Origin: Neocallimastix lanati (nom. inval.)
Taxonomy: Eukaryota; Neocallimastigomycota; Neocallimastigomycetes; Neocallimastigales; Neocallimastigaceae
Direction: 5' to 3'
Assembly (NCBI GenBank): GCA_016946835.1
Contig: JACVTC010000030.1
Location: 112,501-150,000 of the forward strand
Length of the DNA stretch: 37,500 nucleotides
Position 1 is the first letter of the stretch; each line of letters begins with the position of its first letter. This document shows, in pieces, positions 7,005-32,735 of this stretch. The position numbers and the translations under genes are program-made. Below the pieces are notes generated by a model. It worked only from the letters and a program-made list of their open reading frames with translations. It was not told where the DNA came from and searched no databases.

Positions 7005-7018
7005 CTCCCCCTCAAATC
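7005..7018 (-). other. polypurine tract of the copia element
   Basis: Minus-strand GATTTGAGGGGGAG abuts the TG that opens the 3' LTR, the expected position for plus-strand DNA priming. It overlaps the last bases of the Gag-Pol frame, whose stop codon lies at 7017-7019. Confidence 0.8.
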
Positions 7019-10000
7019 AGTTTTCATTTGTAATGAAAATTTGATTTGCAAAGGTTGTCATTTTAGTACCATTTACACATTTTGTTAATGTGTCAGCTAG
7101 CATTTTATCAGTACTGATATATTTTAATTTAATTAAATTTTTCTCAATATTGTCTCTATTAAAGTGATATTTAATTGAAATATGTTTTAATTTTGGATTT
7201 AATTCTCCATTTTCCATTGAAATTTTACTTGCATTATTGTCTGTGAATAATGTTAGTGGTTTATTAAATTTGAGTAATTCGTATAATATATTTTTAATTC
7301 TTAATAATTTCTTGATACATACTGACGCACTTATGTATTCAGCTTCTGCTGTTGATGTGGCGACAACTGACTGTTTTTTCGAGGTCCAGGATATTGGATT
7401 ATTTCCCATTAAGATAATATTACCTGATGTTGATTTTCTGTCAGTAACGTCACCAGCGAAGTCTGAATCTGTGTAACCTACAATGTTACCAGTGCCATCA
7501 TATTTAATTTTGTAATTTTTGGTATTTTTTAAATATTGTAATATTGCAATAACTTTGTGCCAGTCAGATACTGTTGGATTTTCTGAATTTCTGGCAGCTT
7601 TGTTGACTGAAAATGCAATGTCGGGTCTGGTACATTTTGATAAATAAATTAACATACCAATTGCACTTTTATATTTTGTTTTGTTGAATGGTTGGTTATT
7701 TTCTGATATTGTATTATCACCAACACATGGTGTTTTTCTTAGTCTTTTGTTATTGATATTAAATGTTTTTAAAATATTTTCTATAAATTGTGTTTGAGAT
7801 AATGTATAAGTGTTATTTCTATTTTCAACTTTAATTCCCAATAAGTAGTCTATTGGACCAGATTTTGAGATCTTGAATTTGTTTTTAATTTTATTGAAGA
7901 TTTTGTTAATTTCTTCCTTTTCTCCAGTAACAATCATATCGTCTACGTATAAGCCAATTATACAGACTAATTTTCCATTTACGATTTTCTTAAAAACGCA
8001 ACTTTCAGATTTTAGTTGCTCCATTCCTTGTTCAATTAAAAATTTAGAGATGGTATTATACCATTGTCGGCCAGATTGTTTTAAACCGTATAATGCTTTG
8101 TTCAATTTCCAATATCCCCTCCCAAAGTTAGGATCTCCAGGGGGAATTTTGACATAGATATCTTTGTCTAAATCCGCGTTGAGATACGCAGCTTTGATAT
8201 CTAATTGGAGAATGTCCCATTTAAATTTAGCAGCTAAGGAGATAAGAAGTTTTAAACAATCGATATTAAGGGTAGGAGAGAAAGTCAACTCATAATCAAT
8301 GCCATATTTTTGAGAGAAACCTTTAGCGACAAAACGAGCTTTATGTTTAATAATATGGCCAAGACCATCAGTCTTAAGAGCGTAGACCCATTTGGAAGGA
8401 ATGGGTTTCTTACCATCTGGAATATTGTTCACAAAAGTCATAATTTTATTAGTATAAAGATTATCCAGTTCGTTATCCATAGCTTTTTCCCATAGAACGT
8501 GGTCTTTACAATTTGTGGCTTGGAAAAATGATTGGGGCACAAAATTATCCAAAGTAGCAATAATTTTTGAATTAAAGTTTGATCTACGAAATTTTTGTGA
8601 TTGGGAAGGTGTTAAATCGTCCGAAAGTGACCTTCCGTGTTTTTTAAAATTAAACTGTTTTTTAATATGTAAATAATTATTTTTCTTAATTTTAAAAGGA
8701 TTATTTGAAAATAAATAATCAATATTTCCATTTTCAAAATTTTTATTATTTTTGAAATGAAAATTGCTCCTATGATGAGGTAAATTAATTCTATTGAATG
8801 AATTTGTATTAAAAGAATTTTGGTTATCTATATGTAGTTCTTTAACACTTCTTCTGCCATTAAAAGGGAACTTTTTGTCGATGTAAGAAGAGATAATATT
8901 ATTTCTATTAAACATAGTATTTTCTTGAGAAGAAGAAGGAAAATTATAATAATTTGGGTTTGAAAAATTTTTGGATTTAGATATATTATCAGTAGTACTG
9001 GTAGATATATTATTTTTAATATTTGTTTCAGAAAAATTTTTATTAAAATTTTCTTTAATTATATTAGATTTATTTGAAGACATATTGGTTTGTTCATTAA
9101 CTTTTCCTTGATTATTGGATTTCTTATTAAATAAGGTTTTGTCGTTAATATCAAAAAATTTTTCTTCATCAGTAATTTTATTATTATTTTGAGTTTTAGA
9201 ATTTTTAACCTTATTTATATTTGAATTTTCAGAAAAATTTTTCTCTTGATTAGAATTATTATTCGATAAGGTTTCATTAAAATTTTTGTTTTTGTTTATT
9301 GAATTTTCTTCATTTTTTGAAAAATTTTTATTATCAGAAAAATTTTCATCAGAATGATTTTTGAAATTTTCTTGATTTTTGTAGTTTTGGGTCTCTTCTT
9401 CTGCGATTTTTATTTCTTTGTCCTTACCAATATTATTATTGATATTGGTATCGTTAGAATCCTCAGTCTCTGGGCTTTTCCCTTTATCTCTTTTAGGGGA
9501 ATTGTCCTTATTTAAATTTTCTTGTAAATCATCATTGTTTGTGATAGGTAATGATGAATAATTTTCTTTGGTATTTTTGCTATTTTCTTTGTTGTTGTTA
9601 TTAAATTTATTTTCAGAAGGTTTACTACTATGGTTACCAGCTTTATGATTTTCTCCACCAGATGAGTCTGGTAAATTCTTCGAAAAATAAAAATCAAAAG
9701 TAAGAAATTCCTGATCACCATATTGATTTGATTTATTGTTTGCTAATTTTACATTAGCAGGAGTATCTTCTAAACAGTAAATTTCTCTACAATAATGAAT
9801 TGAATTATCATTGAAATCCATAATAATATAGCTATTAGTTTTTTCACTAAATCCAAGAAAAATTCCTTTCTTAGAATTAGGTGAAAATTTGGATTTATTT
9901 TGGCTTCTGTCAATATAGAAGGTGATACAACCGAATACCTTGATGTGATTAATTTTTACTTTGTTTTTGTAGAATATTTCATCTGGAATTTTGTTATGAA

Positions 10001-12299
10001 TTCCAGAATGAGGAACTTTGTTGTATATATAGTTAGCGTATAATATCGCAAAGTCCCAGAAGTTTTCACTAAGTCCACTCCAATATAACAAGGTTTTCGC
10101 GCAGGAAACAATAGTAAGATTAAATCTTTCACATAGTCCATTATTTTCAGGATTATACGGAGGAGAGAATACTTTTTCAATTCCATTTTCATTGCAAAAG
10201 GAATCAATTTTCTTGTTTTTATATTCCTTTGCGTTATCCGATTTAAAAACTTTAATTTTATGATCCTTATATTTATTATTAAGCATTCTTAAGGTATTGA
10301 TAATAATATCAGTAGCTTCTGATTTACTCTTCATTATAAAAACCCATGATTTTCTAGAAGCTTCATCTAAGATAGTAAGTATAAACCTTTTTCCTGTGTA
10401 TGATGTGTTAATAGGACCAATAATATCTGAATGTATAACTTCTAAGATCTCTTTAGTTCTAGGAGGAGTTTTATTGTGTGGATTGCGTTTCATTTTCGCA
10501 ATTTTGCAATCATCACACTTATCTAAGTTAATTTCATGATTATTTAGATAATTCTTCAAATCTTCTTGGTAGAAATGACCAAGCCGTCGATGCCAAGTTA
10601 ACTCTTCAGCATTCCGAAAATTTTGGATTGCCATAAGATTATTTTTATTATTTCTTTCATTTTCAATATTGAAATGAGTAACTACAATTTTAACTTCATT
10701 GTTATTATTAGCTTGGAATGTGGCAATAATATTATAATTGTTATCTAAAATTCTGAGGATAATATTATTGTGTTTATCCTTTTCTGTCAAGGTTTTAACA
10801 TCTTGTTTTGCCCATTCTATTCCACTAATAATATTTTTAGCTACTTCTTTTGAATATAATACTTTGTTAAATTTAAAATGATAATTATTAATAGTAAATT
10901 CAAATTCACCATGGCCTTCAAAATAGCAATAAGTATTATTGGCACATCTTAACTTTATTTTTTCTTTTTTAAAATTTTTAAGCAGACTTAGATCATTAGT
11001 TATATGTTCACCAGCACCTGAATCATATAACCATTCTGATGTTTCTTTTTTATTGTAATTAATATTAAAAATTTCATTTGTATTATTTGTATTTATTTCC
11101 TTTTTATTAATATTATTTATAAAAATTTCATTAGCTAAATTTAATTTATTTTCTACTCGTGTTATTATATTATTTTTAATTAAAACTTCATTTTTAACGT
11201 CTTCTTTATCATAATTTATGAAACAATTTGATTTTTCAGATTCTTGATATTCATCTGAATCATCATCATCCACATATTTTCCTTTGCTTTTAGGATTATA
11301 ATATTTATAAAACATTGGCTTTATATCATCATAAGATATATTTTCATTATTTTCATCATTTAAATTAATATATCTTATGGGTCTTCCATTATGCCAATTA
11401 TTATTAGTGTGATAATTATTTAATTTTTGTTCATCTTGAATGTAGTATTTATTGTATAATCCATTTGGGTTTCTTGGATTATACCTACATTCTTTGGTAG
11501 AATGACCCCTCCTTTCACAGATTTCGCAGTATTTATTATTATTGTTATATTTATTATTATTAAATTTTTCTTTGTTGTTTTGTTTACTTGGATTTCCTTT
11601 TTTGGAAAAATTTTTATTATTGTTCTTGTTTTTTAAATTTTTCCTATTCTTGTATCCAAGTTTCCCAGCATAGTCGATGTCCATTGGATCATATGATCGT
11701 TGGTCTTTATCTGTTTGTTCATCGACATATAACCAGGTGTTTATATCTTTTACTATAGTTGTTTTTAATTCTTCGGCTGTTTCATTACCATTTAAAGTTA
11801 ATTTCATTTTATAACTTTTTGGTAATGCTCTTAATAAATATTTTACTTTTTCTTTTTCGGAGATAATATTTCCGGAGGAGTTCATGCCATTAAATAATTT
11901 AAAGATTTCCTTAATAGCTGAAGGTATTTCTGTTTCCTTTTCAGCTTTGACATTTTTAAGTTTACTAATCCATTGAGTCATGTCATTCTCACTTAATTTG
12001 TATTCTTCTCTTAGATAATTTATTATGGCATATGGAGTGTTCATGCCAATAATATCTTCATGGATTTTGGAATTTATGGTATTTTTAATAATATAACGGA
12101 CTTTTGTGTTCGTTTTCTTGATTTCCTTTATTTCTTCTTCCTTTTTGGTATTGTCCCTTTTGGCTTCTTCCAATATATCTTTAGTTAGATATTCAGCTAA
12201 GTCACCTTTCTCCAATATGTCCGTTAAATTATCATACCATATATTAAAATTTTTGCCATTCAATATGGCTTCCTTTTTGAACGGGATAAAATCACTCAT
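7017..12299 (-). CDS. copia Gag-Pol polyprotein (1760 aa)
   Basis: A single uninterrupted frame encodes all retrotransposon functions. Residues ~1-190 are a UBN2-type Gag. A CCHC zinc knuckle lies at C258-C261-H266-C271. The aspartic protease motif YDSGAG has its catalytic Asp at 426. Integrase follows: the HHCC zinc site is H570/H575/C595/C598 and the catalytic triad is D625, D688, E724 (a DD35E spacing). Residues ~870-1240 are an unusual Asn/Ser/Lys/Glu-rich spacer with recurring NFS. Reverse transcriptase runs ~1260-1510 with Asp1367 in LDIKAAYLN and YVDD at 1451-1454. RNase H follows with YTDSDFAG (Asp1611) , the TAEAEY motif near 1650 and TDNNA (Asp1687). All key residues appear intact, so the product may be active. 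ATG 12299 is the first codon and lies about 187 bp inside the 5' LTR. Gag and Pol share one frame; no programmed shift is needed. Confidence 0.97.
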   Translation of the reverse strand: MSDFIPFKKEAILNGKNFNIWYDNLTDILEKGDLAEYLTKDILEEAKRDNTKKEEEIKEIKKTNTKVRYIIKNTINSKIHEDIIGMNTPYAIINYLREEYKLSENDMTQWISKLKNVKAEKETEIPSAIKEIFKLFNGMNSSGNIISEKEKVKYLLRALPKSYKMKLTLNGNETAEELKTTIVKDINTWLYVDEQTDKDQRSYDPMDIDYAGKLGYKNRKNLKNKNNNKNFSKKGNPSKQNNKEKFNNNKYNNNNKYCEICERRGHSTKECRYNPRNPNGLYNKYYIQDEQKLNNYHTNNNWHNGRPIRYINLNDENNENISYDDIKPMFYKYYNPKSKGKYVDDDDSDEYQESEKSNCFINYDKEDVKNEVLIKNNIITRVENKLNLANEIFINNINKKEINTNNTNEIFNINYNKKETSEWLYDSGAGEHITNDLSLLKNFKKEKIKLRCANNTYCYFEGHGEFEFTINNYHFKFNKVLYSKEVAKNIISGIEWAKQDVKTLTEKDKHNNIILRILDNNYNIIATFQANNNNEVKIVVTHFNIENERNNKNNLMAIQNFRNAEELTWHRRLGHFYQEDLKNYLNNHEINLDKCDDCKIAKMKRNPHNKTPPRTKEILEVIHSDIIGPINTSYTGKRFILTILDEASRKSWVFIMKSKSEATDIIINTLRMLNNKYKDHKIKVFKSDNAKEYKNKKIDSFCNENGIEKVFSPPYNPENNGLCERFNLTIVSCAKTLLYWSGLSENFWDFAILYANYIYNKVPHSGIHNKIPDEIFYKNKVKINHIKVFGCITFYIDRSQNKSKFSPNSKKGIFLGFSEKTNSYIIMDFNDNSIHYCREIYCLEDTPANVKLANNKSNQYGDQEFLTFDFYFSKNLPDSSGGENHKAGNHSSKPSENKFNNNNKENSKNTKENYSSLPITNNDDLQENLNKDNSPKRDKGKSPETEDSNDTNINNNIGKDKEIKIAEEETQNYKNQENFKNHSDENFSDNKNFSKNEENSINKNKNFNETLSNNNSNQEKNFSENSNINKVKNSKTQNNNKITDEEKFFDINDKTLFNKKSNNQGKVNEQTNMSSNKSNIIKENFNKNFSETNIKNNISTSTTDNISKSKNFSNPNYYNFPSSSQENTMFNRNNIISSYIDKKFPFNGRRSVKELHIDNQNSFNTNSFNRINLPHHRSNFHFKNNKNFENGNIDYLFSNNPFKIKKNNYLHIKKQFNFKKHGRSLSDDLTPSQSQKFRRSNFNSKIIATLDNFVPQSFFQATNCKDHVLWEKAMDNELDNLYTNKIMTFVNNIPDGKKPIPSKWVYALKTDGLGHIIKHKARFVAKGFSQKYGIDYELTFSPTLNIDCLKLLISLAAKFKWDILQLDIKAAYLNADLDKDIYVKIPPGDPNFGRGYWKLNKALYGLKQSGRQWYNTISKFLIEQGMEQLKSESCVFKKIVNGKLVCIIGLYVDDMIVTGEKEEINKIFNKIKNKFKISKSGPIDYLLGIKVENRNNTYTLSQTQFIENILKTFNINNKRLRKTPCVGDNTISENNQPFNKTKYKSAIGMLIYLSKCTRPDIAFSVNKAARNSENPTVSDWHKVIAILQYLKNTKNYKIKYDGTGNIVGYTDSDFAGDVTDRKSTSGNIILMGNNPISWTSKKQSVVATSTAEAEYISASVCIKKLLRIKNILYELLKFNKPLTLFTDNNASKISMENGELNPKLKHISIKYHFNRDNIEKNLIKLKYISTDKMLADTLTKCVNGTKMTTFANQIFITNEN

Positions 12300-15193: not shown

Positions 15194-18100
15194 ATGAATA
15201 ATAATGAAGAAAATATAAAATCCTTTGATTATCAGATTGATACAAAGGAGCGTATAGAAAACAATCATTCTAGTATAATTAATATTAATGAAATTGACGG
15301 CAATAAAAATTTTAACAATAATAACAGTAATAGTAACAATTATAGTGAAAATAGCAAAAGTAATAGCAATCATAATAATAATGACAATAGAGATAACAAT
15401 AATAACAACAGTAAAAATAACAAAAATGAAGCAAGAAATAAAAGTTATGCAGAAGGAACAAAACGTAGAAGAAGAATATATATAAGACATAGGAATAAAA
15501 CATTTAATACATTATTAAAGCAATCAGATGCTCTTAAAAAAAAATATAAACCTGGAAAATTTGAAGAAGTTATTAATGGTCCTCGTGGACCTGATGTTCG
15601 TTTACACAGACATAAAGTTATTGTAGGATTATTGAAGCTTTTATTGATTTTATTTATAACGGCTGGTATAGTATTATTAACTGTTATTATGCTCTGTATC
15701 ACTATAAATGTGGGTTATGTATGTGTTCAAATTGATGATGTTAATTCATTTGTTCAGTTGCTGTTTTTCGCCTTTTATTTTGATGCTTTATATTATATTA
15801 TGAGATCATTTTGGAGAACTTATCTCAGAGCAATACATTCGATCATACATTCAAAAATAGGTTCTTCCATTAATGATATTTTTATTAAAAGAGTTTTAGG
15901 TTATTTTTTAAGTCTAAAAATTGCGCAGTGGACTATGCCTGAAAAATATAAGGAACACCCTAAAATTTGGTATGAAAGGGTCAACCTGACAATATTTATT
16001 ATATTTTTAATTTTATGTTTTGCTCCTGTCATTTTAATTGCATGCATTTTTGGCTATTGGAAGCTTACAGGAACAATATGTTTGTTATTTGTTGGAGGAG
16101 GTGCTGTAACCATTGTTACTTTAAATCTTTTTTCCCGCTTAATTCTTTTTATCAAATTTTTTAGAAGATTAGATGAATTTTATTATGATGCTCCATTTTA
16201 TTTAGATATAAATGAACGTATTGATAATCAAACGAGCTATTTACGTTTAACCTATTGTACTACAAATGGTTTAGAAGGGGGTGAAAGTTCCCTCGATTAT
16301 GTATTAGATTTATTAATACACATGATTATTTCTATTGGAGTAGCTGCTTTTATTTTTGGTTCTTTTGATCCCGATGTTTGGAAAATTACTGTCATTATTG
16401 TCGCTCTTGTCATTCTTTTACCAATTCGTTATAGAAAAAGTCTTCGTAAATTTTTAGTTAAATGTCATATTCTTTCCAAGGAAAAGTTGGATAAAAAAAA
16501 TGAAAAAATTAAAAATAAAGTTAATGCTGAAATGGATGCTACTCACAAAAATTATATCGATAATAAGAAAAATAACGATCAAATCGTGAATAAAATAACA
16601 AAAGTTTCTTGGTTGAGTAAATTTAAATCAAAATCTAGTTTGTTTCGTAAAGGTAATTCTAAAACAAACAGTAATATTAATAATAATGATCAGCAACAAG
16701 TTAATGATACCAATTGGAATAAAACAAAAATTGATATAGATAAAGATAATAATGAAAATAGTAACAACGATAATAATATAGATATTAATATTTCTGATGA
16801 AACTATTTCAAATGATGCTAATTCTTTTATCGATATAGAAGAGGCTCCTTCCTCCTCTTCAAATGTTGTCAATATTAATAACATAAATATTAATAATCAA
16901 GTTCCATTTATGGATAATGCTACTACTTCCTTGCAACCTAATTCGATTGAAAACATTAACTCTATTGCTAATGAAAATGAAATTAATAACAAATCCGAAA
17001 AATTAGAAGAGGATAGTTTCAGCTATATTTTGAATTCAAATAAGCCTTTTATTAGACGGAAGGCTCTTTTAACATGGGATATTAAAACTCTTATTACATG
17101 GAAAGGTTGTTTAACGATCTTTATTACTAGATTTATTAAATATGTTGTTGGTATTACTTTTATGGCCTTTTTAAATTATTACAGATATTCAGAAGTTTCA
17201 GATTATGATAAAACTTCAGATAATCTTAATAAAGATGCCGTCACTCATGTTATCTTTATTTTACTTTTATTATGTCAGGATGTTCTATTTTTAATTCCAG
17301 TACCCTTTTTTCAATCCATGAAAGCTAGGAAATTTTTATTTATGACTTTAATCATTATTGAATTTATCTTTGTTATTGGTATGCGTGCTATTATTACCAA
17401 TGGTTATATTCCAATGGCTTTCATTGTGTTAGCTTACGCTAATTTCTTAGTTTATCCAGATCCTCGTTATACATGGGATGATGAAAATGCAACTCGTAAG
17501 ACCTTCTTTGATTTATTTAATCCTAATCTTAATCTCCGTTCTGAAATTGATTACGAACATTATGATAAAAAGAGAGGCTATCACTTTAATAGATCTGATA
17601 GAACCACCTCCTCTAACCGGACCAAAAAATTAAATGAAAATTTAAATAAAAATAATAAAAATAATAAAAATACTACTACTAGTCATAATAATAATAATAA
17701 TAGTAATAATAATAGTAATAATAATGGTAATAATAATAGTAATAATAATGGTAATAATAATAGTAATTATAATAGTTATAATACTACTACTTCTACTTTT
17801 ACTCCTACTGCTACTCCTACTACTACTAATAATAATAATAGTAATAATAATAGTAATGATAATAGTAATAATAATAGTAAAAATAGTAATAAATATCTCA
17901 GTACTTCAAATATTCAAACTATGATTGTTGGTCGTCCTGTTAATGGTGAGAAAATAATCGCTGAATCCAATAATTCCAAATACAATAATATCAGTGACAA
18001 TTACAAGAATAAAGGAAAAAATATGGGAGATCCTGAAATTGCTATTCCATCATTTTATGATACCTCCGATTATATCTTTGGTGGAATGAACGAAGAAATA

Positions 18101-19255
18101 ATAAGTTATGATTCAATAACGGAATTTAATAATGACGATTTACCTAAAAATATATATATTGATATTGATGGTCAGGATTATAAGGTCACTCAGAAGAAAA
18201 AGAATCCAGAATTGGAATTCCAAAAAGCTGTTAAAAATATTAGAAATGAAATGCAATATAGTCGTAATACACGTGCTCGTTATAATAGTACTGCCATTTT
18301 AATGGTAACTATTTTATTTATATTGGCTTCCCTTATTATAGGTATCATGTTTGCAGGTACTGCTGATGAAGATTTCACCAAGGATCGTGAAGTAGATAAA
18401 TTAATATCTCCAAAACCAGCCATCTGTCAATGGCGTGGTGATAATATTACCATTAATGAATTTGCTAGTCTTTCCTGTGCTTGTTATTATAAAACCACTA
18501 AGGATGTCATGTACTCCTGGCTCTATAGTCGTCCATCAACTTCTACTAATAATTTCACCATCGGTGATAATAATATTAATTCAGAATCTGGAGTTCAATT
18601 TGTTGATTTTGTGAATAATGAAACGAACACCATTGTTGTTGCCATTCGTGGTACCAGTACCATGGAGGATATTTTCCAAGATATCTATATCTGGAGTGCT
18701 TCAGCCTTACTTCAACTCTCTGGTTTCTTTGGTACGTTCATTAAATTTTGGCCAAGAGAAACCATAGCTGGATTAGTAAAATTTATTGTTAAACAATTTA
18801 CTAATTTCCAACTTCTTTATTGGGTGGATGTCGAAGAACATATTATTAGCTTGAGAAAGGCTAATCCAACCACTAATATTTATCTTACTGGCCATTCTCT
18901 TGGAGGTGGAGTAGCCGGAGTAATTTCAGCACATTTGAATATTCCAGCAATTACTTTTTCATCACCAGGTCTAGGCTATTCATATAAAACCTACGATATT
19001 GAGCTGAAAAAGTTGATTAATAACTTTGTAAATGTAGTTCCTATGTCGGATCCGGTACCACTATTAGATTCCCAGGTAGGACAAATTCAAAGTATTGAAT
19101 GTAATTCGGAGGAACCTCTTTCATGTCATAGTATCTATAATACAATGGATACCTTGAGTGAGATGTGTCGTGAAAAATCCGTATATCGTTATTGGGATAA
19201 TACCATAGAAGCTAAAATTAATGGAAAAGATATACCCCATGTAATGCCTTACTAA
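15194..19255 (+). CDS. polytopic membrane class-3 lipase (1353 aa)
   Basis: A single exon encodes a lipase of the fungal class-3 (Pfam Lipase_3) fold at its C-terminus. The segment TIVVAIRGTSTMEDIFQD (~1146-1163) gives the oxyanion region, YLTGHSLGGG holds the nucleophile Ser1235, PMSDPVP the Asp1286, and CHSIYNT the His1312, so the triad is complete. Ahead of it lie about eleven hydrophobic segments: near 143-172, 187-203, 264-288, 292-312, 371-391, 397-413, 640-660, 685-703, 713-730, 737-754 and 1033-1054. Residues ~28-80, 490-605 and 815-900 are Asn/Ser-rich loops, the last one encoded by AAT/AGT codon runs. The lipase domain follows the last membrane segment directly. Acylglycerol or phospholipid hydrolysis at a membrane is inferred; diacylglycerol-lipase-like membrane lipases are the nearest analogy, ATG15-like enzymes a weaker one. 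The start is the first ATG in frame and has no upstream competitor in that frame. Confidence 0.88.
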   Translation: MNNNEENIKSFDYQIDTKERIENNHSSIININEIDGNKNFNNNNSNSNNYSENSKSNSNHNNNDNRDNNNNNSKNNKNEARNKSYAEGTKRRRRIYIRHRNKTFNTLLKQSDALKKKYKPGKFEEVINGPRGPDVRLHRHKVIVGLLKLLLILFITAGIVLLTVIMLCITINVGYVCVQIDDVNSFVQLLFFAFYFDALYYIMRSFWRTYLRAIHSIIHSKIGSSINDIFIKRVLGYFLSLKIAQWTMPEKYKEHPKIWYERVNLTIFIIFLILCFAPVILIACIFGYWKLTGTICLLFVGGGAVTIVTLNLFSRLILFIKFFRRLDEFYYDAPFYLDINERIDNQTSYLRLTYCTTNGLEGGESSLDYVLDLLIHMIISIGVAAFIFGSFDPDVWKITVIIVALVILLPIRYRKSLRKFLVKCHILSKEKLDKKNEKIKNKVNAEMDATHKNYIDNKKNNDQIVNKITKVSWLSKFKSKSSLFRKGNSKTNSNINNNDQQQVNDTNWNKTKIDIDKDNNENSNNDNNIDINISDETISNDANSFIDIEEAPSSSSNVVNINNININNQVPFMDNATTSLQPNSIENINSIANENEINNKSEKLEEDSFSYILNSNKPFIRRKALLTWDIKTLITWKGCLTIFITRFIKYVVGITFMAFLNYYRYSEVSDYDKTSDNLNKDAVTHVIFILLLLCQDVLFLIPVPFFQSMKARKFLFMTLIIIEFIFVIGMRAIITNGYIPMAFIVLAYANFLVYPDPRYTWDDENATRKTFFDLFNPNLNLRSEIDYEHYDKKRGYHFNRSDRTTSSNRTKKLNENLNKNNKNNKNTTTSHNNNNNSNNNSNNNGNNNSNNNGNNNSNYNSYNTTTSTFTPTATPTTTNNNNSNNNSNDNSNNNSKNSNKYLSTSNIQTMIVGRPVNGEKIIAESNNSKYNNISDNYKNKGKNMGDPEIAIPSFYDTSDYIFGGMNEEIISYDSITEFNNDDLPKNIYIDIDGQDYKVTQKKKNPELEFQKAVKNIRNEMQYSRNTRARYNSTAILMVTILFILASLIIGIMFAGTADEDFTKDREVDKLISPKPAICQWRGDNITINEFASLSCACYYKTTKDVMYSWLYSRPSTSTNNFTIGDNNINSESGVQFVDFVNNETNTIVVAIRGTSTMEDIFQDIYIWSASALLQLSGFFGTFIKFWPRETIAGLVKFIVKQFTNFQLLYWVDVEEHIISLRKANPTTNIYLTGHSLGGGVAGVISAHLNIPAITFSSPGLGYSYKTYDIELKKLINNFVNVVPMSDPVPLLDSQVGQIQSIECNSEEPLSCHSIYNTMDTLSEMCREKSVYRYWDNTIEAKINGKDIPHVMPY

Positions 19256-20291: not shown

Positions 20292-20299
20292 TTTATTAT
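20226..20299. repeat. (TTTTA)n microsatellite
   Basis: Pentamer repeat immediately left of the LINE remnant. It partly overlaps the proposed target-site duplication. Confidence 0.9.
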
Positions 20300-20304
20300 A
20301 TTAT

Positions 20305-21283
20305 TATTAGGCCAGAGCAATTTGGATTTCGTACTAAAGAAGAATGTGTTAGTTTATTTATTTCAATTCGAGAAATTTGTCAAAGGCGTAAAAAATGATA
20401 ATAAAGAAAACTTACCTTGCTTTTCTAGATTTTAAAAAAGGCATATGATTCTGTTCCAATAGGTAATATTTTATATAAATTAGATGCTTTGGGTATTAGA
20501 GGTAAATGTTATCAATTTATAAAAAATCTATATTTGACTTCCAAAGCCAGTGTTAAAATTGATGATCAATATTCGGAATCTTTCAATATTATGAAAGGAG
20601 TTAGACAAGGTTGTCCATTATCACCAATTCTTTTCAATCTTTTTATTAATAACATTTTTAATGATTTTTCAGAACTTGGAATTCCTTTAGGCGAATCTAG
20701 ATGTTGTGGTGATGATATTGTTCTATGTGCACCATCAAGAACTAAGTTAAAAAAAGATGCTTAAGAAGGTAAATGAATGGACTAAATTTAATATGATGAA
20801 TTTTGGAATTAACAAGTGTGCAACGATGGTGATTCGATCAGACACACCTCTTTTTCAAAATAAAAGAGATCCTACTTTTTATCTTGCAGGTCAACCAATC
20901 CCAATAACTAAATGTTATACCTATTTAGGTAATAAAATCAATAATTTTTATTGGAATAGAGATATGAAAAGCAATTCTATTAAAGCTGAGCTTTATGACA
21001 AAAAACAAATTCGAAGAAACATCAAAATTTATAAAACTTTGTTATGAATATCCTGATCTTTCATATGGTTTCTATTGGCTATTGAGAGCACGAAGCGGAT
21101 ATAGATTAGATGCTAGAATTGCTAAAGCTTACAGATATTAATTAAATGAAACTAGAATATATTATACCATTATTTTATTTTATTTTGTGTTTTATTTTTT
21201 GTTTATTTTTTTATCTTTTTTTTATTTTATTACATGTATTTTATCAAATATTTAATTAAAAAAGATGAAACAAGTTTGCTGCC

Positions 21284-25550: not shown

Positions 25551-25707
25551 ATGTTATTCAAGAACTTATTCAAGATCACAATTGGTTTATTGTCAATTGC
25601 AGCTTTTGCTCAAGCAGACGGCTGTAAAGAAATTGAAAAAAAATTGAAAAATAAGATTGAAGAATGTGTTACTAATGGAGATTTCATTGAATTGTAAAAT
25701 ATAATGA

Positions 25708-25789
<82 letters not shown>

Positions 25790-27915
25790 TAATAATGATT
25801 AACACCATTTTTGATATAATTTAATAGACAAACTCATCATGATTTGGATAAGTCAGAAATTGAATATTTATTCTCTATTGAATCAATTAAAGTTCTGTAA
25901 GTATCAAATATTGTATTATTTTTATTATTATTAAACTAATTTTATTGTTTTCATTGTTAAAGACAAAACAAAATAAAATATTTAAAGTATTAATATAAAT
26001 TGTAACAGTTATTATGAATAATAATATTAATTTTTAGATAGTATATTAATTTTATCTTTCTTTATTTATTTTTTTTTTTTTTAATATTTTTAATTTTATT
26101 TTTTTTATATTTTTAATAGTACATTTAGAGTTGTAGATAATGTTAAAGGTATTGAAAAACTTAAGAACCTTGAAGATCTGTAAATATAGTTATAATATAA
26201 TATATATATAATTTTTTTTATTGTATTAAATTTTTATATTTTTATTTTATTTTAATATTATATTATTATTTTTAAAATATTAATCTATTTTTAAATTTTT
26301 TATTAAAAAAAATAGTACACTTGCTGGTGTTTCTTCTCCTTCTAATCTTGAGGGAATAGGAAAACTTAAAAACTTAAAGAAAATGTAAAAATCATGATCT
26401 CTATTATTAAATATTATATAATGAAATATTATTATTTTAATAAAATTATTAATATCGTATTTAAAATTTATTTAATTTTCGAATTTACAGAAGTTTTGAT
26501 GCAAATAATAATATCACCGAATTTCCAGATGAATTAGGAGAATTAGAAAACCTTGAATATCTGTAAATATATATACATATATATTAAAAAAAATAAGAAA
26601 AATATATTTAAAAATAAAAAAAGAAAGATATATATATATATATATTTAAAAAAAAAAAAAAAAAAAAAAAAGAAAGATAGAAAAGTATGTATATATTTAT
26701 ATAAATGATTGATAACATTTTCCATATATATATATATATATTTAGTGATATTGGAGATAATTATCTTCTTGATTTACCAAAAAGTCTTTCAAAACTTAAG
26801 AAACTTAAGAAGCTGTAAAATATTAATTTTATATTTTTGAAAAAGTTATTTTTAATAATGTAAATAAATGAATTAATAATGTTAACATTTATATATCTAA
26901 ATTATTTAGTGATATGAGAGAAAATAATTTTAAGAAAATTCCTGAAGTAATATTTAATATAACTAGTCTTGAAATTTTGTATGTACTTTAACATTTAATA
27001 ATTTTTTCAGAATTATTTTATATTTGTAGGATGCTCCTAATATATTTTATTTATTTATTATTTTTTTTTAATATATATATATATGTAGTAATGCTGGTTC
27101 CGCTGGTATCACAAGTATTCCAAAGGGAATAAAGAATCTTCAAAATCTAATTGAATTGTAAATATATACACTTATTCGTTTTATTTTATAAAAATTATCA
27201 TTTATTTGTAAATAAATAAATTATAATTATTATTTTTTTTTATTTATCTATATATTTATTATCATTATTTCTAACATTTAATATTATATTATTAATATTA
27301 ATGTTTTTTTTTTGTTTTAAAAAAAAATTGAAACAGTCGTATTGCAAATAACCAAGTTACTGAAGTTTCATCAGAAATTGGAAAACTTAAAAATCTTAAA
27401 ATTTTGTAAATATTTATTTGATAAAAGTATAATATATATATATTAATAAAGTATTGTTATATATAATTGCTAATTATTGATTAACTTTATAGAGTTCTCT
27501 CAAATAATTTACTTACAAAGATCCCAAAAGGTTTAGAAAATCTTAAAAATCTTGAAAAGCTGTAATTATTAAATATAATAATATATAAGCATATATAATT
27601 ATTTTATAATTAAATTTATAAATGATAAAATAAAATTTAAAATTTACTTTATTTTATTTTATTTTATTTTATTTTTTTAATTATTTTATTTTAAATATTA
27701 ATCACTTTTACCTTATTTTATATATAGTTATATGGCTGGTAATTTAATTGACGATGAAATTCCTGAAAGTTTAAATAGTCTTCCAAATCTTAAAGTCTTG
27801 TAAGTATTTAAAGATAATTTTTATATATATAATATATATATATTATATAGTATTATTTTAATTTTTTAAATTTATGTTAATTATTATTATTATTAAATAT
27901 TTTTATTATATTTAT

Positions 27916-27963
<48 letters not shown>

Positions 27964-28635
27964 TTATTTTATTATTTATTTATTTTTTTTTTAATATATC
28001 AATGACAATAAAAAAAAAGTTCCATAGCAGGTAATGAAAAAATTAGAGGAAAGACTTTAACTAATGATAAACTTGAAGAGTGTTACTATGATAAAAATTA
28101 CGATATATGCAAACCAAAAGATATGAAATGTTTAGAAAAAGAAGAATATGAAATTAAACCTTGTAGTGACAATACCCCATCAAGTGATAAAATTTCTACT
28201 AATGGTAAATGTGGTGCTAAAGATGGTAAATGTCCTTCTGGTGAATGCTGTAGTAAATATGGTTGGTGTGGTTCTTCGGATAAGCACTGTAAAGTTGACA
28301 GTGGCTGCCAAGCTAAATATGGAACCTGTAAAACAACTGAAAAAATTTCTACTAATGGAAGATGTGGTGCTGAAGATGGTAAATGTCCATCTGGTGAATG
28401 CTGTAGTAAATATGGTTGGTGTGGTTCTTCCTATAAGCACTGTAATGTTGACAGTGGCTGTCAAGCTAAATATGGAACCTGTAAAACAGCTGAAAAAATT
28501 TCTAAAAATGGTAAATGTGGTACTGAAGATGGTAAATGTCCATCTGGTGAATGCTGTAGTAAATATGGTTGGTGTGGTACTTCCGATAAGCACTGTAAAG
28601 CTGGTTGCCAAAAAGCCTTTGGTAAATGTAAATAA
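25551..28635 (+). CDS. secreted leucine-rich-repeat protein with three C-terminal CBM18 chitin-binding modules (481 aa, 12 exons)
   Basis: Exons: 25551-25693, 25828-25896, 26120-26179, 26316-26384, 26491-26562, 26746-26814, 26910-26978, 27089-27157, 27337-27405, 27493-27561, 27728-27799, 28020-28635. All eleven introns start GTAA or GTAT, end in AG and are phase 2, and the joined frame stays open. Exon 1 gives a signal peptide (MLFKNLFKITIGLLSIAAFA) and an acidic/basic helix. Exons 2-11 are each 60-72 bp and each encode one ~23-residue repeat of the form LxxxxNxxTxIPxxIxxLxNLExL. The last exon gives a linker, then hevein-type CBM18 modules at ~341-380, 392-431 and 443-480, each with CPSGECCSKYGWCG; the third lacks two residues before its last Cys pair. 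Role inferred: extracellular protein that holds an LRR surface to chitin or related glycans, perhaps in the cell wall. The partner of the LRR part is unknown. Confidence 0.85.
25717..25786. repeat. (TAA)n microsatellite inside intron 1
   Basis: About 70 bp of TAA units within the first intron of the LRR-CBM18 gene, close to its donor site; its length may vary between strains. Confidence 0.9.
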
Positions 28636-29667: not shown

Positions 29668-29680
29668 ATTGTGTACTGGA

Positions 29681-30217
29681 CCTAGTTTTACACACTGGAT
29701 ACTTTTATGTCCAAAATTTGAAGAATTTAGGCAACATTTCATTCCCTTTGTTGATGAAATTTTTATTAATTTTTCTCTTATTGTTCATGAGAAATCATTG
29801 AACATTCCTGATGATAAAGAGGAAGATTTTGATGATAATATCAATTTTTACGTGCTGTGTCTCCTTCTTGGCGGAAATGCAGTATTTGAAATCTTAAAGA
29901 TCGGCTCGGGGGAAAGAAGGCGATATATTAATAATATTTTTCAATCACCTTCGAACGAGTCTTCTTTCCCGATTTCATATTTTGTGGGGCTTGCGGAATT
30001 CCTTACTAACGTTATGCCTATTGTGATTGGTGATTTTTACACCATGATCGATTTGTATAGTGTTAGACCTACCGTTGTCAAGAGCGTCGACGTCGTAACG
30101 ATAAGGCAAAGAAGAAATTCTGATACAGATTCGAATGATAATTTTCATCCACATGGAGTTATCTTCGATGAATGGGAAGAGTTAGAGGCCTTTTCGTCCT
30201 CGAATCTCATAACGTAG
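29681..30217 (+). pseudogene. C-terminal fragment of a LINE ORF2-type protein
   Basis: The open frame reads PSFTHWILLCPKFEEFRQ and onward, which matches the His/Cys half of the C-terminal zinc-knuckle region typical of non-LTR retrotransposon reverse transcriptases (…HxLLxCPxF…). About 178 residues remain to the stop, including NFYVLCLLLGGNAVF and a charged tail. The frame is intact, which agrees with a fairly recent insertion, but the polymerase is missing, so it cannot mobilise itself. Confidence 0.7.
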
Positions 30218-30317
30218 TTTTTTAATATTAATATAAAAAAAAAATTTCATGTATTTAAACTTCATGTATTTTTTTAAAAAAAAAAAAAATATATTATTAA
30301 ATAAAGTTTATTCCTAG

Positions 30318-30356
<39 letters not shown>
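29681..30356 (+). mobile_element. 5'-truncated LINE 3' end with poly-A tail and 13-bp target-site duplication
   Basis: ATTGTGTACTGGA occurs immediately before the element (29668-29680) and immediately after its poly-A tail (30357-30369). This sequence is not simple, so the duplication is convincing. The 3' untranslated part ends in TTTATTCCTAGTCT followed by about 37 A residues. Confidence 0.85.
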
Positions 30357-30360
<4 letters not shown>

Positions 30361-31641: not shown

Positions 31642-32735
31642 TTAATTACATTTACCATATAATGATTGACATCCTTTCTTCTTACTACAGTAGGCATCAG
31701 TAGTACCACACCAACCGTATTTACTACAACATTGACCCTTTGGACAAGAACCGTATTCTTCACCACATAATCCATCAGATCTGATAGTTGGAAGAGTTGA
31801 CTTGGTGGTAGTAGTGACTGGAGTAGATTCTTTACATTCACCATATTTTTTCTGACATCCTTGTTCAATACTACAGTATTTACTAGTAGTACCGCACCAA
31901 CCATACTTACTACAACATTGACCCTTTGGACAAGAACCATATTCACTACCACATTCACCAGAAACCTTATTAGATGGAGTAGGTGAAGAAGATTTCGTAG
32001 TTTTAGTGTTCTTAGTTGTGGTTACAGTTTTCTTTGATGTAGAAGACTTGGTAGTCTTAGATCCAGTACCACAATATTTTTCACCTGTACCACAATAACC
32101 ATACTTACTACAACATTGACCTTCTGGACAAGTACAATATTCATCACATTTACCTAATAATTCATAGGTAGAGCAAGTAATCATACGTCTCGTAACTTCA
32201 AGGAAATTTTGATCACAGTCACCACTTTGACAACCAATTTGACAATATTCTTCAGTAGTACCACAATGACCTATTATAAAATAAATATAAATATTAAAAA
32301 TATAAAAAAAAAAAAAGGAAAAGAAAATTAATAATTCATTTTATTAATAGGTTAATTATATTGATTAAATCAATTTTTATATAATAAATATAATATAAAT
32401 AAAAGTAATTCCATACCATAGAAAGAACAACATTCCTTGTATTTACTATATAATTTACTATTTTCTTCTTGAGATAATTCCATACCAGCATCTCTGTATT
32501 CCTCTAATATATATAGAATTTATATAAATAAATATATATATATATATTTTATATAATAAATTAATAAATATTTATGAAATATAACTATATAAAAAAATTT
32601 TATCTAATTTATTGAATATTTACTCTTTAATGGACAATGGTAAATGGCATTACAATGACCCTTTGGTGGTTCATCAAACATTTCAATATTAGCGAAAGCT
32701 AATCCAACGAAAGATAATAAATATAATAATTTCAT
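31642..32735 (-). CDS. secreted protein with four CBM18 (hevein-type) chitin-binding modules (275 aa, 3 exons)
   Basis: Exons on the minus strand are 32735-32624, 32503-32417 and 32270-31642. Donors are GTAAAT and GTATGG, acceptors TTAG and ATAG, and the joined frame is open. Residues 1-16 (MKLLYLLSFVGLAFAN) form a signal peptide. Module 1 (~28-85) is diverged and lacks the usual CPSG start but has CCSFYGHCGTTEEYC, with intron 2 in its core between Tyr66 and His68. Module 2 (~108-133) has CCSKYGYCGTGEKYC. A Ser/Thr/Lys linker at 134-170 is a likely O-glycosylated spacer. Modules 3 (~173-212) and 4 (~235-274) are canonical, with CPKGQCCSKYGWCGTT. No catalytic domain is present. It should bind chitin or GlcNAc polymers outside the cell; protection of the fungus's own wall or wall assembly are possible roles. 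It converges on the LRR-CBM18 gene about 3 kb away. Confidence 0.87.

Follow-up and report, generated by a model that had tools for sequence, protein, structure and literature searches.

A predicted leucine-rich repeat gene with one exon per repeat and a CBM18 tail, and its family, in Neocallimastix lanati

The locus and its predicted product

The window, that is, the whole stretch of 37,500 nucleotides of Neocallimastix lanati DNA analysed here, contains on its forward strand a leucine-rich repeat (LRR) gene (25551–28635) whose 12 predicted exons give a stop-free product of 481 aa. Its features are as follows (window positions).

25551..25693, +, exon 1: signal-peptide-like start (by eye) and LRR N-cap; homologues aligned
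25828..25896, +, exon 2: 69 bp, first LRR unit, degenerate
26120..26179, +, exon 3: 60 bp, LRR unit, short
26316..26384, +, exon 4: 69 bp, single LRR
26491..26562, +, exon 5: 72 bp, single LRR
26746..26814, +, exon 6: 69 bp, single LRR
26881..26937, +, equivalent of the stretch deleted in paralogue C90: end of intron 6 with its acceptor and first 28 bp of exon 7
26910..26978, +, exon 7: 69 bp, single LRR; unit missing from C90
27089..27157, +, exon 8: 69 bp, single LRR
27337..27405, +, exon 9: 69 bp, single LRR
27493..27561, +, exon 10: 69 bp, single LRR
27728..27799, +, exon 11: 72 bp, single LRR
28020..28180, +, first part of exon 12 (28020–28635): final LRR strand, Cys-rich cap, and linker
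28181..28333, +, CBM18 module 1 (exon 12; Pfam and module comparison)
28334..28486, +, CBM18 module 2 (exon 12; 93% identical to module 1)
28487..28635, +, CBM18 module 3 and stop (exon 12; Pfam and module comparison)

With a strict penalty on gene starts, a gene finder that had no phase preference and was trained on three other open reading frames from the window reproduced this 12-exon model exactly; its default setting split the gene in two and gave a wrong 5′ end. The exon structure described by the first-pass annotation is confirmed at the level of prediction: the translation and the gene finder both bear out (i) ten internal exons of 60, 69, or 72 bp (in order 69, 60, 69, 72, 69, 69, 69, 69, 69, and 72 bp), each encoding one LRR unit, and (ii) 11 introns that are all in phase 2 and interrupt the repeat at the same position. 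All 11 (87–223 bp, 4–14% GC) have GT-AG ends, and each cuts the codon of a conserved hydrophobic residue midway along the concave β-strand. The rule of one LRR per exon holds overall, but exon 2 is degenerate and exon 3 encodes only 20 residues; the last exon does supply three CBM18 modules, as had been claimed, but the final LRR strand and the Cys-rich cap also lie there. The acceptor of exon 12 is AAG, a type found in 27 of the 128 introns modelled in the family.

The product is probably secreted; its N-terminus is hydrophobic and its C-terminus has no hydrophobic stretch (both read from the sequence by eye). Pfam matches above the cut-off were LRR_4, LRR_14, LRR_8, LRR_1, and three PF00187 stretches (83.2 bits against a cut-off of 27.8), and no kinase or nucleotide-binding domain was matched by Pfam in the 481 residues. 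The Cys-rich cap has the sequence GKTLTND..LEECYY. In the AlphaFold model of the homologue P0002 (mean pLDDT 87.8, with blocks of 92–99 across residues 101–320), all 11 introns of the window gene map within a β-strand, and Foldseek listed 50 matches with E values from 4e-13 to 2e-9 and an LRR solenoid fold.

The CBM18 modules carry CCSKYGWCG-SD-HC, a core shared with pokeweed lectin-D, which makes it likely that they bind chitin; the nearest chitin would be that of the fungus's own wall. Modules 1 and 2 are 93% identical at the DNA level, and module 3 is 75% identical in an ungapped comparison. The modules had been read as recent duplicates; the close identity of modules 1 and 2 stands, but their duplication predates the split between the window gene and C90. 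In modules 1 and 2 of these two genes, 4 sites are shared within each gene, 4 are module-specific, and 9 follow other patterns, which indicates a module duplication older than the split and some later conversion. Wholesale recent duplication was rejected on these counts, and modules 1 and 2 appear to have been partly homogenised within each gene.

Other features of the window are (i) a second chitin-binding gene (31642–32184, reverse strand), an open frame with three PF00187 stretches, whose finder-guessed introns are in phase 1, unlike those of the LRR gene; (ii) a copia-type retroelement polyprotein (7017–12299, reverse strand) in an open frame of 1760 aa, identified with Pfam; (iii) a 1353-aa frame (15194–19255, forward strand) with a class 3 lipase domain close to the C-terminus; (iv) a high-copy repeat (20298–21129), of which 20298–20931 is 95% identical at at least 41 other places (best 40 candidates scored) and whose translation resembles, by eye, a piece of reverse transcriptase; and (v) a 680-bp sequence (29680–30357), 98–99% identical at at least 39 other places (best 40 candidates scored), which overlaps a 213-aa frame without a Pfam match and represents a young repeat beside the LRR gene.

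The LRR-CBM18 family and its introns

A protein search with the window product gave 741 matches from 7,989 scored candidates, and a count of the Pfam column revealed both an LRR family and PF00187 in 91 of the 120 listed matches. The combination sought among gut-fungus proteins is that of a large family. The species listed are Piromyces, Anaeromyces, Neocallimastix, and an Orpinomyces-type code, all of which we take to be Neocallimastigomycetes. The nearest database proteins listed, P0001 and P0002, align over the full length with 62% identity to the window product and have no LRR-sized gap across the array. In the genome assembly (199 Mb, 762 contigs), a query with the cap gave 65 matches from 69 candidates, all of which were scored, and several of the matches are near-identical copies. 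More than one cap match was found on each of contigs C23, C21, C1, and C357; these may represent longer chains or gene clusters. In P0017, P0081, P0109, and P0118, judged by their Pfam codes, similar CBM18 cassettes accompany deacetylase, serpin, CotH, and GH18 domains in fusion proteins; the cassette appears to be a general tail of secreted proteins.

Twelve intron-bearing genes were modelled: the window gene, C90, C124a, C124b, C759, C2b, C740, C479, C750, C732, C223a, and C223b, the last with its 5′ end cut. All of their 128 introns are in phase 2, and the split codon encodes L, I, F, V, or M at 127 of them. This clean tally leaves out trailing pieces of C479 and C750 past the sequence end; the raw tally, finder artefacts included, is 134 of 141. 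In 53 finder-predicted non-LRR genes, many of them possibly spurious, 76 of 180 introns are in phase 2, so the finder has some preference for phase 2 in its output but does not impose it on every intron. At its default setting, the finder ended genes early within an intron, often at XXG TAA (the window gene, C90, C740, C750, and some end-cut loci); stricter start penalties produced false upstream exons in some models and fused the two C223 genes.

Splicing is supported for C124a, predicted to encode 527 aa with nine introns over 3,209 bp from start to stop. Its product is 99.8% identical without gaps to P0010, whose longest database contig has 1,929 nt, into which an unspliced copy would not fit. 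The annotated N. lanati protein P0055 equals P0010 minus one CBM18 stretch and the last residues. The donor is GTAA in 102 of the 128 family introns, and in phase 2 this sequence means that a retained intron halts translation immediately; intron retention would yield an LRR protein minus its chitin anchor.

The family also contains longer arrangements. C223a (C223:451801–469300; L080/L081) has 27 exons, 26 phase-2 introns, and two LRR solenoids linked by a 267-bp hinge exon that is flanked by phase-2 introns and corresponds to a C-cap plus an N-cap. Hinge exons with a CBM18 inside are present in L052, L064, and L079 (384, 414, and 423 bp), and L074 has one of 288 bp without CBM18. In C223a, exons 8–15 and exons 19–26 have residue identities of 0.32–0.62 in register, against out-of-register means of 0.20–0.30, which indicates that the exon block was duplicated together with its introns, long ago.

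The paralogue C90 and the pattern of substitution

C90 is the nearest paralogue of the window gene. Homology covers the gene and its near flanks, from about 24731 to about 29093 of the window, and only homologous pieces are found farther downstream, where 1,544 bp of C90 were compared. C90 as an allele is contradicted by the end of homology at about 24731 upstream and its continuity only to about 29093 downstream, and these limited flanks point to a dispersed segmental copy; flank searches of the genome (best 40 candidates scored) were dominated by repeats and do not themselves settle whether C90 is an allele or a paralogue.

In C90, a 57-bp deletion took the intron 6 acceptor together with the initial 28 bp of exon 7. 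The remaining 41 bp of that exon lie unused inside a 198-bp intron, with 38 of 41 positions identical, and the sole AG before the end of this remnant runs straight into a stop. The predicted protein (458 aa, nine internal exons) is in frame; the alignment was used to set by hand the boundaries of its exons 2 and 3, with a GTTAG donor, and the point where its tenth exon begins. Because P0001 and P0002 possess exon 7, the C90 state, known from the sequence of one assembly, is a loss. The proposal that symmetric phase-2 exons can be removed without loss of frame is borne out by this gene, which is direct evidence that the symmetric exon layout tolerates repeat loss.

The two genes were compared over 458 codons with exon 7 excluded, so the following values describe one gene pair. 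The LRR exons have a dN/dS of 0.80, against 0.12 for the CBM18 part. By convention, the exposed positions of an LRR strand are those of the pattern xxLxLxx, and five positions per strand were taken as the exposed set. At these positions, dN is 0.197, dS is 0.181, and dN/dS is 1.09, not clearly above 1, with an intron divergence of 0.141; a strand set picked earlier, after viewing the alignment, gave a dN/dS of 1.27, which is not relied on. Nonsynonymous changes concentrate at the exposed positions, where 45 of the 188 codons hold 18.5 of the 41.2 changes (p = 0.006). Fisher tests separated both the strand and the other LRR positions from CBM18 (p = 0.002 and p = 0.012) but detected no difference between the strand and the rest of the LRR (p = 0.52). 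Substitution at the exposed residues of the strands thus runs near the neutral rate or above it, and the CBM18 part is conserved.

This pattern fits a conserved anchor with a free or diversifying binding face, and it helps the proposal that the protein is anchored to chitin and serves in recognition. That the fast evolution of the LRRs instead reflects relaxed constraint in redundant copies, with the loss in C90 as early decay and with no recognition role, we consider unlikely. An exposed-strand dN/dS close to 1 and not above it, and the presence of many paralogues in one genome, agree with relaxation, but the window gene and C90 are both stop-free, their CBM18 part keeps its low dN/dS, and the clustering of changes on the exposed strand counts against plain relaxation because relaxation does not predict clustering.

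Plant polygalacturonase-inhibiting proteins are LRR proteins that block enzymes. The gut-fungus proteins could likewise be wall-bound inhibitors, in which the LRR part would block hostile chitinases or other enzymes and CBM18 would shield chitin; we give this reading a small share of the probability. The LRR plus CBM18 architecture itself and the reported protection of a chytrid from chitinases by fungal CBM18 proteins (PMC4471660, in part) speak for it. We think it distinctly improbable that CBM18 holds these proteins on the fungal wall as adhesins for methanogens or other prokaryotic partners. In favour of this reading, the genes most strongly induced in Caecomyces churrovis with a methanogen include CBM18 genes, and a CBM18 gene heads the list for N. 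californiae in co-culture on reed canary grass (both PMC8665504, in part). Against it, an "LRR receptor-like" gene and a "chitin binding protein, partial" rank with the most strongly down-regulated genes of a Pecoramyces F1 co-culture (PMC6414434, in part). None of the genes named in these studies is identified there as LRR-CBM18. The CBM18 induction in some fungus–methanogen co-cultures suggests a role, which the Pecoramyces F1 result contests.

Repeat number, interpretation, and known systems

The exon layout had been taken as a sign that the gene is built to vary its LRR number. To follow repeat gain, we used the self-match, defined as the best identity that a 69-nt window of the LRR coding sequence reaches with another such window. 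It is 0.58–0.725 in all ten split genes, against averages of 0.56–0.60 for codon-shuffled sequence, which indicates no recent repeat duplication; seven more partial split loci gave at most 0.70, and three others had too few exons. The single-exon LRR types gave 0.93 (C732, which retains only the first intron), 0.84–0.99 (C23, C748, C135, C746, and C2, where the sole intron found is the last one, before the cap, in phase 2; L053–L056 and L062), 0.84 (C101, with neither introns nor CBM18), and 0.62 (C37, without introns). The C37 sequence was cut at its first CBM18 and that of C732 was extended into CBM18, because their caps do not fit the cap pattern used; the best self-match of C732 lies within the LRRs. 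L062 has gained two LRRs in frame relative to four close copies, with a best 69-nt window of 98.6% identity. In total, a self-match of at least 0.84, that is, a recent gain, was found in none of the ten split genes and in three of four single-exon lineages (Fisher p = 0.011). A rank test by lineage gave p = 0.075, and without lumping close copies (10 split against 8 single-exon genes) it gave p = 0.004.

On each of contigs C2, C23, C748, C135, and C746, a second cap match lies 1.8–2.1 kb away. About 800 bp upstream of the intron-free LRR-CBM18 gene of C37 (L046, C37:395001–398000), a Ty3-like integrase C-terminal fragment was recognised by eye, a hint that this gene could be of retrocopy origin.

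Recent exon duplication was also rejected by direct comparison. Among 1083 within-gene exon pairs, part of which come from finder output merging adjacent C223 genes, none exceeded 75% identity, and the best pair, at 75%, itself derives from such merged output. Exon number does differ between paralogues, C90 having one exon fewer than the window gene and C740 and C2b one 69-bp internal exon more than C124a and C124b, but recent gain was not seen.

Retention of symmetric exons in order to let the LRR number vary, by exon shuffling or alternative splicing as suggested for the brown-algal ROCO genes, is therefore hard to sustain as an explanation, and we hold it very doubtful. The universal phase 2 of the sampled family introns, the clean single loss in C90, the one-exon difference of C740 and C2b from C124a and C124b, and the block duplication within C223a favour it; the exon-pair comparison, the gap-free arrays of P0001 and P0002, and self-matches of at most 0.725 in split arrays against 0.84–0.99 in single-exon ones oppose it. 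The claim of a gene built to vary its repeat number is thus not supported by the split genes. Repeats that adjoin one another seem to change in number more readily than repeats parted by introns, a contrast that comes from four single-exon lineages, one of which (C37) has no recent duplication, and that coexists with an exon lost from the split gene C90. The introns may stabilise the array, and it may be that the single-exon arrays grew up inside a single exon instead of through intron loss.

The explanation that we favour, and regard as rather probable, is that of a secreted LRR-CBM18 protein whose array is old and whose introns keep the repeat number steady. The product would consist of an LRR solenoid (N-cap, ten LRR units, and Cys-rich cap) followed by three CBM18 modules, and the family array would have been built long ago by duplication of exons flanked by phase-2 introns. 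CBM18 would anchor the protein to chitin, most likely that of the fungus's own wall, and the concave LRR face would bind a changing partner, which could be another microbe, a protein of the host or of a plant, or a hostile enzyme. With diverged AT-rich introns on both sides of each repeat, a split array would resist slippage and unequal exchange; its repeat number would shift rarely, through loss or gain of whole exons, and single repeats would diverge. The paralogues with single-exon arrays are those seen altering repeat number by tandem duplication.

More speculatively, and with little likelihood at present, gut fungi may display an outward LRR repertoire on chitin-binding tails, in which one exon per repeat fixes the number, introns block slippage, exposed residues diversify, and fused arrays change fast; the scale of such a repertoire is given by the 65 cap matches of this single genome, although near-identical copies are included in that number. 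Fungal NLR sensors mostly use WD40 or TPR repeats instead of LRRs (PMC10197012, in part), and for a fungus a repertoire of outward binding proteins built on LRRs would therefore be unusual.

Brown algae and hormone receptors already provide arrays of one exon per LRR with phase-2 introns, and Tetrahymena has a related arrangement; no such array in fungi or with CBM18 came up in our literature search. That search, outside which most subscription papers lie, found no report of LRR-CBM18 proteins in anaerobic fungi and none of exon-per-LRR genes in fungi; the nearest case is a gut-fungus dockerin protein annotated with LRR (PMC12421816, in part). Hevein, wheat germ agglutinin, and the pokeweed lectins share CBM18 with the gut-fungus family but have no LRR, and Leptospira LIC10831, internalins, and plant receptor ectodomains share the LRR solenoid but have other anchors and no CBM18.

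The gut-fungus family has an LRR per exon, and its introns all cut the repeat at a single point and in phase 2 (128 of 128 introns, 12 genes). Gonadotropin receptors are animal proteins that also have one exon per LRR, with a 7TM part in place of CBM18 and the effector part on a large last exon. Their introns are likewise in phase 2 (PMC11378527, in part). The brown-algal ROCO (LRR-ROC-COR) genes resemble the family in having an LRR per exon (72-bp exons), phase-2 introns, and a proposed role in recognition; they differ in encoding ROC-COR GTPases with strong exon shuffling and alternative splicing, and the available part of the source reports no chitin binding (PMC11378527). By contrast, the gut-fungus genes have LRR exons of 48–108 bp, a CBM18 tail, and no recent exon duplication that we could see. 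Tetrahymena has symmetric arrays of LRR exons with an extreme phase-2 bias in very large families; its exons are exactly 90 bp, with recent clonal expansions and one possible exon fusion only (PMC6564038, in part). The gut-fungus split genes gave no sign that their LRR exons were recently shuffled or clonally expanded (1083 pairs, 10 genes), and at least four lineages of the family have fused arrays. The exon-per-repeat layout is usually read as a shuffling device; this first look points to stability instead, and the split and single-exon versions of one LRR array in one genome constitute a natural side-by-side test of the effect of introns on repeat number.
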